Shown here one piece after another: positions 38,522 through 42,788 of a stretch of DNA of 64,000 bases. The position numbers and the translations under genes were made by a program. The notes below the pieces were generated by a model, which searched no databases, was not told the origin of the DNA, and was given only the letters and a program-made list of their open reading frames with translations. Position 1 is the first letter of the stretch. Every line of letters starts with the position of its first letter. The DNA lies in contig NZ_REFC01000011.1 of NCBI RefSeq assembly GCF_003688405.1, positions 186,001 to 250,000 on the forward strand, read 5' to 3'. This stretch comes from Ulvibacter antarcticus (GTDB lineage Bacteria; Bacteroidota; Bacteroidia; Flavobacteriales; Flavobacteriaceae).

Positions 38522-39454
38522 CTATACATTCTTTCCCCAATCTCTGAGTTCCTCTTTCGTCCAAACATCAGGAAAGAATATTCTGCGTTGATATTTTGGG
38601 TGCATGTATTTTGTCCACTCACTTCCGCCTGTAGCTTCCACGGCTTCACCACCAATATTCAAATACTTATTTGCGGCATGATAATGTGCCATTACCCAGG
38701 TAACATTTACAGTATAGTCGTAATGTCGCATGGCATTTAGCAACTTAGGATCCTCCTGCACCTCTTTAGGAAGTTCCTTAAACTTGGCGTACAAATTTAT
38801 GGTATTATACTCTTGTGTAAAGGCAATAAACTCATTTTTATATTGTTCTTCGAAAGATTTTAATAAAAATGACTTCTTTCCGGTCTCGTAATTTTTCCCT
38901 GCTGCCTGCCAATATAAATGCTCTAAGGCGTGCTCATAAGGTGTATTTCGATCGATATTTTCTCGAAATCTCGCATCGATTAGATTAATAAGGTCTGTTG
39001 ATGCAAATTCAATTTTACGATATTGGGCGCTTTGAAATCCACTTGCCGGAGTTAAAGTAGTTCGAAATTTCATATACTGCTCTACCTCCATTCCATCTCC
39101 CATAATAGTAAATGAGGAAGCAAGCATATCGAAATATCTACTTATACGCATTAGTTTTTCTGAAAAAAACGCAACTGTTATTTCTTTCTTGTGTGCGACC
39201 TGAGAAATTTCCCATAAAATCATCTTAAACAGAAGTTCATTGATTTGATGGTACATGATGAACACCATTTCATCTGGTAGATTGGTGCGTTGAACCTGAA
39301 GATTTAATAAAGCGTCGGTCTGAATGTAATCCCAATAGGTGATAGGCTCACTGTGCAGTAAACCTTCTAAATGTGTATCCAAATCCTGATCGATTGCACT
39401 GAACTTCTTTTCAAGTTGTTCCAGTAGTTTTTTGGTTTCGTCAGTTATTTTCAT
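38522..39454 (-). CDS. Tryptophan 2,3-dioxygenase family protein
   Basis: A 310-residue haem-dioxygenase-family protein. The FIMYHQINELLFKMILWE segment (with the haem-pocket-type His69) and the later FRTTLTPASGFQSAQYRKIEF segment are TDO hallmarks; WVMAHYHAANKYLNIGG and ATGGSEW match the distal haem-ligand and substrate region. TDO opens the indole ring of tryptophan to N-formylkynurenine. Other kynurenine-pathway genes are absent here, so substrate is not certain. It lies 2 bases after DUF3108 and 16 before the M23 gene. Confidence 0.88.
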   Translation of the reverse strand: MKITDETKKLLEQLEKKFSAIDQDLDTHLEGLLHSEPITYWDYIQTDALLNLQVQRTNLPDEMVFIMYHQINELLFKMILWEISQVAHKKEITVAFFSEKLMRISRYFDMLASSFTIMGDGMEVEQYMKFRTTLTPASGFQSAQYRKIEFASTDLINLIDARFRENIDRNTPYEHALEHLYWQAAGKNYETGKKSFLLKSFEEQYKNEFIAFTQEYNTINLYAKFKELPKEVQEDPKLLNAMRHYDYTVNVTWVMAHYHAANKYLNIGGEAVEATGGSEWTKYMHPKYQRRIFFPDVWTKEELRDWGKNV

Positions 39455-40330: not shown

Positions 40331-41491
40331 TTATAAGGTTCCTCTAGCAGCTTGTTCCCTTTCGATCGACTCGAACAACGCTTTAAAATTTCCTGCTCCA
40401 AATCCTTTGGCTCCCATACGTTGAATGATCTCAAAGAAAAGTGTAGGTCTATCTTCAAGTGGCTTGGTGAATATCTGTAATAAATAACCCTCTTCGTCTG
40501 CATCTACTAGAATGGAAAGTTTTTGAAGTTCTTTAATGTCTTCTTTCATTACCTCCATGTGTACTCCTAACCTTCTTGGAATATCGTCGTAATAATCTTG
40601 TGGTGGAGGTGGTAAAAATTCTACTCCTCTAGCTTTTAGCTGTGAGATAGTTTTAATAATATCATCGGTTGCCAAAGCGAGATGCTGTACTCCGGAGTCT
40701 TCATAAAAATCCAGGTACTCTTCAATCTGCGATTTTTTAATTCCTTTTGCAGGTTCGTTGATTGGAAATTTAATACGGCCATTTCCATTACTCATTACCT
40801 TACTCATAAGGGCAGAATATTCGGTGTGAATTTGCTTGTCATCGAAAGATAAGAAGTTAACAAAACCCATAACGTCTTCGTACCATTTTACCCAGGTATT
40901 CATCTGTCCCCAACCTACATTTCCAACCATATGGTCAATATATTTTAGACCGGTAGCTTCAGGATTATAATCTGATTCCCATTTTCGGAATCCTGGTAAG
41001 AAAGTTCCTTTGTAATTTTTACGCTCTACAAACATATGCACTGTCTCACCGTAAGTATAGACCCCTGCGCGAATTACTTCTCCGTGTTCATCTTTTTCCA
41101 CCACAGGTTCCATATACGATTTCGCACCGCGTTTTGTAGTTTCTTCATAGGCACTTCTGGCATCATCTACCCATAGTGCAATAACCTTTACGCCATCTCC
41201 ATGTTTTACTATATGATCATTTATTGGAGAAGAACTATTTAGAGGAGTGGTAAGTACAAGTCTTATTTTATCTTGTTTCAACACATAACTTACAGATTCT
41301 CTGGATCCCGTCTCCAAACCTTTATAGGCATACGATTGAAATCCGAATGCTGTTTTATAAAAATGTGCCGATTGTTTTGCGTTTCCGACATAGAATTCTA
41401 CATAATCGGTTCCCAAAAGTGGTAAGAAGTCTTTTGCTCCTTCAAATATTTTTTCCAAACCGTAATCGACTGATTTTACATCCTTACTCAT
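40331..41491 (-). CDS. hppD: 4-hydroxyphenylpyruvate dioxygenase
   Basis: A 386-residue non-haem iron enzyme that converts 4-hydroxyphenylpyruvate to homogentisate in tyrosine breakdown. Two vicinal-oxygen-chelate domains are visible. The iron ligands are His in YIDHMVGNV, His in VQHLALATDD and Glu in FFEIIQRMGAKGFGAGNFKALFESIEREQ, all in place. The frame extends 22 codons upstream of the chosen ATG at 41491, but that part overlaps the structured RNA element and lacks family similarity. hmgA lies upstream on the same strand. Confidence 0.95.
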   Translation of the reverse strand: MSKDVKSVDYGLEKIFEGAKDFLPLLGTDYVEFYVGNAKQSAHFYKTAFGFQSYAYKGLETGSRESVSYVLKQDKIRLVLTTPLNSSSPINDHIVKHGDGVKVIALWVDDARSAYEETTKRGAKSYMEPVVEKDEHGEVIRAGVYTYGETVHMFVERKNYKGTFLPGFRKWESDYNPEATGLKYIDHMVGNVGWGQMNTWVKWYEDVMGFVNFLSFDDKQIHTEYSALMSKVMSNGNGRIKFPINEPAKGIKKSQIEEYLDFYEDSGVQHLALATDDIIKTISQLKARGVEFLPPPPQDYYDDIPRRLGVHMEVMKEDIKELQKLSILVDADEEGYLLQIFTKPLEDRPTLFFEIIQRMGAKGFGAGNFKALFESIEREQAARGTL

Positions 41492-41520
41492 AACATAATT
41501 ATTTAATTTCTTAATTATTT

Positions 41521-41623
41521 TTAGCCCTGATGGCAGCGGCATCCCACGTAGTGCCAAGAAGTAGAGCGTATCTCAATTCATGACTACTACGTGGATATAG
41601 CGTACAGCAGGAAATAGCTCCTT
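41521..41623. ncRNA. Structured RNA element between hmgA and hppD (Flavo-1-like)
   Basis: About 100 bases with a nested fold. AGC (41523-41525) and CCTG (41526-41529) face CAGG (41608-41611) and GCT (41617-41619). Inside them a 9-bp perfect stem pairs CCACGTAGT (41544-41552) with ACTACGTGG (41586-41594), extended by two pairs after a bulge. The outer blocks (AGCCCTGAT...AGCGGCATCC and GGATATAGCG...AGCAGGAAATAGCTCC) look to me like the Flavo-1 RNA motif known from Flavobacteria, named from memory. The strand of transcription is not decided by the sequence. Confidence 0.5.
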
Positions 41624-41630
41624 ATAAAAA

Positions 41631-42788
41631 TTATTCCAACCAAGATTGGTAATAGGTATCGTCTGCTATTTTTAATGCTTCTTCTGTAACCTTTAAAGGT
41701 TTAAATGTGTCGACCATAACGGCCAATTCATCTGTTTTTGTCTTTCCAATAGATCGCTCTGTGGCTCCCGGGTGGGGCCCATGAGGGATTCCAGCCGGAT
41801 GTAATGAAATGTGTCCTGCATCTACATCATTACGACTCATAAAGTCCCCATCGACATAATACAACACCTCATCACTATCGATATTACTGTGATTGTAAGG
41901 CGCGGGAATGCTCAAAGGGTGGTAATCGTACAATCTGGGCACAAAACTACACACCACGAAGGCGTCCGTCTCGAAGGTTTGGTGAACCGGCGGCGGTTGA
42001 TGAATTCGACCTGTAATAGGTTCAAAATCATGTATTGAAAAGGCATAAGGATAATTATAACCGTCGTAACCCACCACATCAAAAGGATGACTGGCGTAGA
42101 CCATTTCAATTATTTCACCTTGCTTTTTTACTTTTATAAGAAAATCCCCATTTTCATTATAGGTTTCTAATTCTGTTGGCTTTCGAAGATCTCGTTCACA
42201 AAAAGGAGAATGCTCGAGTAGCTGTCCGAACCAATTACGATAGCGTTTTGGCGTGTAAATAGGTCGATAAGATTCTACAATAAACAATCGATTGTCCTCG
42301 GTGTCAAAATCCATTTTATAAATAATTCCTCTTGGTACTAAGAGGTAATCCCCGTATTTGAAATCGAGATTCCCCATATGGGTTCTTAGTTTTCCGGTTC
42401 CTTTATGAATAAAAATCAATTCGTCGGCATCGGTATTTTTATAGAAATAATCTATCTGCGACTCTTTTGGAGCTGCTAAAATGATGTTGCAATCACTGTT
42501 TGTGAGAATTACTTTTCGGCTATCTAAGTAGTCATTCTCGGGCGGCACCTGAAATCCTCTAAAACGATAGGATTGCATATTATTTGCTTTAGCAATCTTT
42601 GGGGCAACACTATACTGCTTTTTTATTTCCTTTACTTGAGTAGGGCGCTGTTCGTGGTATAAATTACTATACATCCCATCAAAGCCAATAGTCCCGAAAA
42701 GTTGTTCGGAATAAAGACTTCCGTCTGGTTTTCGAAATTGTGTATGTCTTTTAGGCGGTATTTTTCCTAAGCTGTGATAAAAAGGCAT
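41631..42788 (-). CDS. hmgA: Homogentisate 1,2-dioxygenase
   Basis: A 385-residue iron enzyme that opens the ring of homogentisate to maleylacetoacetate, the step after HppD. The cupin-type iron region is recognisable: HQTFETDAFVVCSFVPRLYDYHPLSIPAPYNHSNIDSDE split by the HPAGIPHGPHPG motif, with the conserved histidines. Shorter than fungal or human enzymes but normal for Bacteroidota. hppD follows on the same strand after 139 bases that hold the structured RNA. A fumarylacetoacetase gene is not in the window. Confidence 0.93.
   Translation of the reverse strand: MPFYHSLGKIPPKRHTQFRKPDGSLYSEQLFGTIGFDGMYSNLYHEQRPTQVKEIKKQYSVAPKIAKANNMQSYRFRGFQVPPENDYLDSRKVILTNSDCNIILAAPKESQIDYFYKNTDADELIFIHKGTGKLRTHMGNLDFKYGDYLLVPRGIIYKMDFDTEDNRLFIVESYRPIYTPKRYRNWFGQLLEHSPFCERDLRKPTELETYNENGDFLIKVKKQGEIIEMVYASHPFDVVGYDGYNYPYAFSIHDFEPITGRIHQPPPVHQTFETDAFVVCSFVPRLYDYHPLSIPAPYNHSNIDSDEVLYYVDGDFMSRNDVDAGHISLHPAGIPHGPHPGATERSIGKTKTDELAVMVDTFKPLKVTEEALKIADDTYYQSWLE

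Follow-up and report, generated by a model that had tools for sequence, protein, structure and literature searches.

The window, by which we mean the whole 64,000-nucleotide stretch of Ulvibacter antarcticus DNA analysed here, carries hppD (4-hydroxyphenylpyruvate dioxygenase) on the minus strand at 40331-41491 (TIGR01263, 455 bits, cut-off 277) and, on the same strand at 41631-42788, a gene for an hmgA-like homogentisate dioxygenase. Because the latter scored 74 bits against TIGR01015, under the curated cut-off of 510.75, "hmgA" is used as the nearest name and not as one that passed a test; of the neighbours named in the original prediction, the shared minus strand and the hppD name were thus upheld, while the hmgA name fell below its cut-off. 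The same pattern, a score far under the NCBIfam cut-off, was seen for a tryptophan 2,3-dioxygenase-like protein at 38522-39454 (94 bits, cut-off 390.7). The window hppD is 93% identical to that of Altibacter (Flavobacteriaceae) and others, which fits the occurrence of Flavo-1 in Bacteroidetes.

Between the two genes, the Rfam covariance model for Flavo-1 (RF01705) matched the plus strand at 41519-41618 over its full span (model positions 1-76), with 57.3 bits against a gathering score of 42 (E = 7.7e-10 in the window), and this was the sole gathering-level match in the 64 kb among 4227 Rfam families scanned. R1, our own model built from 47 Flavo-1 copies, re-found the element at 41517-41618 with 53.2 bits. 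The proposed Flavo-1 identity was therefore confirmed by the covariance-model check, and the element agrees with the RF01705 family in sequence, fold and taxon and passes its curated score. The family was described by Weinberg et al. 2010 (PMC2864571), has been an Rfam family with no assigned function since about 2010, and a further report (PMC9029176) counts it among abundant small RNAs. The expected order of transcription on the minus strand is hmgA, element, hppD, and the plus strand that matches Flavo-1 is antisense to both genes.

The element belongs to the first of two forms distinguished by eye, class A (the window's) and class B. Its outer stem has AGC and CCTG on the 5' side (41523-41529), with predicted pairing to GCT at 41617-41619 and CAGG at 41608-41611, and the 3' side (41608-41619) is split in the model alignment by a 5-nt AAATA bulge; the three CUG/CAG pairs of this stem form part of the covarying core. 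Position 41530 makes an A.G mismatch with 41607, conserved in 46 of 47 aligned copies and reversed to G.A in the remaining one, and further in lies a 3x3 internal loop in which GCA (41533-41535) faces GTA (41602-41604), GNA standing opposite GNA in 33 of the same 47 copies. The apical stem is a perfect 9-bp helix found by inverted-repeat search (arms 41544-41552 and 41586-41594, 100% complementary, 33 nt between them), so that both this stem with its 33-base loop and the outer AGC/CCTG stem with CAGG/GCT were recovered as the original prediction had described them, the former with exactly the lengths given. An A+T-rich outer arm at 41513-41523 is predicted by inverted-repeat search to pair with 41625-41635 (91%). 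Folding free-energy z-scores were moderate (-2.2 for RNA of the plus strand, -2.5 for RNA of the minus strand, about -2.8 for DNA of either strand), and the case for a more-than-chance fold therefore rests on comparison.

That comparison was made on two alignments, one of 47 copies made with MAFFT without a model and one of 100 copies fitted to the covariance model. In the former, the 7 core pairs were paired in 97.0% of cells versus 72.6% after shuffling, with 74 double changes versus 22.4; in the latter, 15 pairs were paired in 97.3% versus 75.1%, with 297 double changes versus 78.8. The predicted Flavo-1 fold thus covaries. Within the core, G-U combinations outnumbered A-C by 18:2 (137 rows, including one duplicate and many related copies; 13:2 in an earlier count), which indicates that the Rfam strand, here the plus strand, is the folding strand; tolerance of G-U cannot by itself tell RNA from single-stranded DNA.

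Class A copies read TAGCCC on the 5' side and, on the 3' side, GG followed after about five bases by GCTCC. Class B copies carry GCGTTAGGG and, outside the Rfam model, an extra hairpin and a closing strand AACGCC. Of the 73 class B copies parsed, 62 could form a closing helix of at least 5 bp, versus 31 when the downstream parts were dealt among copies, which suggests that class B is most likely a three-way junction; the helix is mostly 5-7 bp long, and among the 62 closing copies GCGTTA occurs in 40 and other complementary sequences in 22, some of them maybe by chance. The next internal loop also comes in two forms whose lengths shift on both sides together: 188 of 214 copies were parsed (26 unparsed), giving 141 of one form, 44 of the other and 3 mixed, of which, by eye, two were parsing artefacts and one a real insertion. 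The 76-position Rfam model, in comparison, reaches neither the third hairpin nor the closing helix that most parsed class B copies possess, and it has a single form of the internal loop where the copies here alternate between two. Further variants were seen. Five copies in different genomes (L089, L217, L283, L306 and L412) differ in the core (GGCATTTGTTGAAGCTC..AGCGACTGCC or a like sequence) or carry an added arm of 40-70 nt after GATT, and several copies of genome G144 (for example L248, L352, L364 and L368, and further L370, L374, L388 and L389) have an apparent insertion in the 3' bulge, of 25-30 nt before CTGCTCC. In G144 and G258, 28 copies (L241-L269) share a semi-conserved stretch around CTTTTGAAAACGAGTG directly upstream of CCCTAGCCC; no such stretch was seen ahead of the hppD-site copies inspected.

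Close hppD homologues (E <= 1e-60) were present in 121 of 149 genomes of the family, and the best-ranked 70, the window's own included, were inspected together with the upstream region. In all 70, hmgA and hppD share a strand, with hmgA upstream, and R1 found Flavo-1 between them in 19 (16 strong matches and 3 weak ones at E 0.02-0.15), in every case antisense as in the window. In 16 of the 19, the gap between the element and the last codon of hmgA, as estimated, is 11-17 nt (23, 50 and 77 nt in the others), while the distance of the element from hppD ranges from 6 to 625 nt. The remaining 51 genomes were without Flavo-1 at this place by the model, and two of these loci (L089 and L095) held rearranged remnants by eye. 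Among 80 named loci, 78 of them with hmgA, ten site matches were found in the same orientation (nine with E < 1e-6, the tenth weak), including Leeuwenhoekiella blandensis and Altibacter lentus; at least L271, L286 and L344 among them are genomes counted before. The proposed check of whether relatives keep the element at this site thus returned a partial yes, in some Leeuwenhoekiella and Altibacter loci as elsewhere. On a quick and weakly supported hppD tree, presence in 21 of 70 genomes (the two by-eye remnants included) required 13 changes versus 18.4 after shuffling, with 2 of 500 shuffles as low; presence is scattered yet clustered, with many losses. In two genomes (L229:177-250 in G020 and L214:162-242 in G062) a Flavo-1 copy was also seen flanking hppD on the opposite side, close to the 3' end of the gene.

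Among the copies detected (L233 being unparsed), the core arms of 14 orthologues were 76-88% identical to the window copy, the 30-nt flank was about 45% identical at the best of 11 shifts, and fourfold sites of hppD at the other 18 loci were 25-46% identical to the window's own gene (chance 33%). Core arms that stay alike beside unalignable flanks and near-chance fourfold sites suggest that the hmgA-hppD element has most likely been passed on by descent, with frequent losses, and has stayed intact wherever it was retained. A U-A signature (CCCTGAT..GCAGG) occurs in 16 of 17 hppD-site copies versus 4 of the 34 class A copies from elsewhere (the duplicate L002 excluded), which argues for one origin at hppD; since genus g142 often shows the same pair at sites other than hppD, the signature is supporting evidence only.

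Long retention and a spacing to the hmgA end that is fixed in 16 of 19 copies are what would be expected of a cis element acting in the hmgA-hppD transcript, whether by tuning hppD or by protecting hmgA mRNA, and intra-operon repeats such as REP elements can tune or protect mRNA. Other class A copies of the family likewise lie 11 nt from stop codons in the -- context. Against this explanation, it is the antisense strand whose fold is conserved, 51 of 70 genomes do without the element by the model, the distance to hppD varies from copy to copy, and orientation is opposite at a second site described below; we regard a cis role as decidedly unlikely. The suggestion that the element, acting from the minus strand, might control hppD fares poorly in view of the antisense fold indicated by both G-U to A-C counts, the contrast between a near-fixed hmgA-end spacing and a variable hppD distance, and the 51 of 70 genomes in which the model finds no element here, and direct control of hppD by the element is unsupported.

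The second old site was found with one G144 copy as query, which gave matches in 79 of 81 genomes of its genus. Of 30 loci inspected, 16 had a model match between a glycosyltransferase-like and a pgi-like gene (gene names assigned by eye), and all 16 were sense to the pgi-like gene; at one further pgi-site locus (L412) an interrupted copy was recognised by eye. Between species matching the query at 71-89%, the apical stem at this site is wholly swapped for another self-complementary sequence, and four loci (L406, L407, L409 and L415) have the other internal-loop type. A sense orientation at pgi and an antisense one at hmgA-hppD argue against action via the mRNA of the gene pair.

The 33-base loop of the window element contains, on the minus strand at 41559-41577, the palindrome AGTGAGCNNNGCTCTACTT with two mismatches. 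The window's own genome has 18 such modules at up to 2 mismatches (control, 1), of which 13 are associated with R1 matches, 7 inside and 6 beside them (one of these R1 matches, at E 0.02, being weak). By eye, another two belong to truncated Flavo-1 copies, and the remaining three (L422, L423 and L432) cluster within 200 bp at G000:C1:268233-268433, outside any Flavo-1 match. The modules occupy both the apex and the third hairpin, in both directions. Judged by its sequence, this loop represents a palindromic module, now decayed, that other Flavo-1 copies in this genome also carry. A related module is present in the hppD-site orthologue of G095 (L076) and missing from that of G003 in the same genus (L075), so that either G003 inherited the module and later had it replaced, or the module was gained more than once; on either history, a fixed site has seen an exchange of apices.

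Beyond these two sites, Flavo-1 is a dispersed family. The own genome had 14 matches (worst E 3.8e-5, 4 over the cut-off), with further degenerate ones besides. At E <= 0.001, 25 of 40 genomes (own included) were positive, with 0-34 matches per genome, and at E <= 1e-5 a search across the class, in which scoring was confined to 18 candidates in each genome, found 83 of 247 positive. Two genomes of genus g142 differed widely, with at least 109 copies in G144 (5.4 Mb) versus 22 in a congener (150 candidates scored in each), so that copy number spans 0 to at least 109 across the genomes searched. Gene context, taken with a crude ORF caller that placed the window copy (L002) inside an ORF, was spread over all arrangements both for 82 class B copies (23 ++, 24 --, 21 +-, 9 -+ and 5 unassigned) and for 54 G144 copies examined (17 --, 14 ++, 12 +-, 6 -+ and 5 unassigned); class A copies of the own family stand mostly in the -- context, i.e. 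their orientation is not free. The regular expression used for class assignment put L025 in class A, although it is class B by eye. GC skew along the element strand gave a mean of 0.009 ± 0.009 in 119 copies, i.e. no replication-strand bias. Taken as a family, Flavo-1 comprises structured elements, each about 65-150 nt long, dispersed between the genes of Flavobacteriia and their relatives.

A free small RNA from the plus strand, the other proposal of the original prediction, would in its general form make Flavo-1 a multi-copy sRNA gene whose copies are each expressed from the Rfam strand as a folded RNA that binds a protein in trans. Rfam types the family as sRNA, the 18:2 excess of G-U over A-C is as an RNA would have it, the conserved A.G mismatch, the GNA/GNA loop and the two-sided covarying loop types resemble a protein-binding RNA, and action in trans would be indifferent to gene orientation. 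The Bacteroidetes -7 promoter box, TAnnTTTG, was however not enriched upstream of the copies, either for 16 hppD-site copies (1 versus 1.5 shuffled) or for 119 copies in all (7 versus 6.2). At the window element the plus strand has one weak sigma-70-like promoter match (chance mean 1.2), and no terminator-like site was found at the window element in a search for intrinsic terminators. In 4 of 19 genomes the gap between element and hppD is only 6-9 nt, and the 0-109 range of copy number also speaks against a gene of this kind. In the passages on Flavo-1 of the published F. psychrophilum transcriptome (PMC9723704), matches lie indifferently sense or antisense to transcribed regions, without strand consistency, and many lie outside them; several 5' transcribed regions overlap Flavo-1 matches. 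With sequence support for it thus absent, we consider the small-RNA explanation possible and, on the whole, unlikely.

A mobile REP element of the RAYT type, moved by an IS200/IS605-type tyrosine transposase, would account for a dispersed palindromic intergenic repeat with a single-strand-specific fold and a very unequal copy number, and the transposase domain Y1_Tnp does occur in some copy-rich genomes (14 matches in G009, 3 in G028 and 3 in G036). It was nevertheless absent from the own genome and from five other copy-rich ones (G003, G006, G008, G020 and G025), none of 30 loci tested, out of 44 Y1_Tnp matches, had Flavo-1 within 1.5 kb, and no GTAG/CGTC tetranucleotide ends were seen by eye on the copies inspected. 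Flavo-1 is also longer than the 20-40 bp given for REPs in a published account (PMC3733652). The RAYT/IS200 link was dropped, on the absence of Y1_Tnp from the own genome and the 0 of 30 loci, and we hold it to be very improbable. The likeness that stays is that of an extragenic palindrome with single-strand-specific structure; the differences from REP and RAYT as presented there (PMC3733652) are the end tetranucleotides, the linked transposase and the length. Compared with bcr1, other stem-loop repeats and MITEs, as outlined in parts of two reports (PMC2267715, PMC3733652), Flavo-1 is likewise dispersed, intergenic and foldable, but it has no terminal inverted repeats of 15-30 bp that could be seen, the 11-nt A+T-rich arm here and the short class B closing helix being the nearest features, and its upper hairpin varies by species while the site stays. 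One copy (L250) had no match in plasmid and phage records, and neither at hppD nor at pgi was there an alignable empty site on which a target-site duplication could be judged, the absent-site regions inspected being too diverged or decayed.

One genome, G036, showed an unusual arrangement (L183-L189). Six of its seven Flavo-1 copies lie behind gene 3' ends (by eye acs, DPP4, fah, rplT, a POT transporter and valS) and are followed by a leader of 250-300 nt and then by accessory genes (a STAND-like NTPase, HNH and others by eye; e.g. L184:640-1300). The leader has 30 matches in the genome, some of them pieces of one place and several about 1 kb apart, and an 85-aa integrase-like fragment adjoins one of them (C34:97532); the whole resembles cassette arrays anchored at Flavo-1. 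Integron attC sites have conserved ends and a variable but self-complementary middle. Flavo-1 is built likewise, and an integron-like explanation, in which it serves as an anchor for the insertion of gene cassettes, would take G036 as its example. By eye, the attC boxes are absent in their usual arrangement, none of 18 genomes had an integron integrase (TIGR02249) over the cut-off, and sub-cut-off integrase matches occurred in all 18 but in 14 of 14 control genomes too. At hppD, gaps of at least 350 nt occurred in 2 of 16 strong-copy loci versus 7 of 51 copy-less loci, so the arrangement is not general, and we judge an anchoring role extremely improbable.

Collectively, and within the scope of each search, the negative results for promoters, terminators, strand bias, transposases and plasmid or phage records, together with the F. 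psychrophilum transcriptome, favour a dispersed structured repeat. In the reading we prefer, to which we give about an even chance, the window element is a vertically inherited member of a presumably non-autonomous, REP- or bcr1-like family of such repeats whose copies exchange modules, and at hmgA-hppD it would serve as a spacer after the hmgA stop that is tolerated or of slight use. A putative factor would bind the folded Rfam strand, as single-stranded DNA or as its transcript; binding would let copies spread rarely and trade their upper hairpin with other copies, and such exchange may refresh the fold. While the fold itself and the differences in apex between copies at a fixed site were seen directly in the alignments and loci above, both the recognising factor and the exchange mechanism are inferred. 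The donors of swapped modules are presumed, from shared apex types, to be other copies, no exchange event having been seen, and no mobilising enzyme, clean empty site or target duplication was found at the sites and in the genomes searched. The persistence of intact copies could equally fit selection for a local function. A bolder version, which we put forward tentatively as clearly less likely than not, is that Flavo-1 is no RNA gene at all and is a strand-specific folding DNA repeat with a putative partner enzyme, old sites being kept while matched two-sided upper hairpins, internal loop included, are replaced from copies of the same genome.

To the known Flavo-1 family the present analysis adds its dispersal, the age of the hmgA-hppD site, the predicted covarying fold on the Rfam strand, the two-sided loop types and closing helix, and the palindromic module of the loop. 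If Flavo-1 is a dispersed, module-swapping repeat that stands in opposite orientation at two old sites, the annotation of Flavo-1 matches would change.
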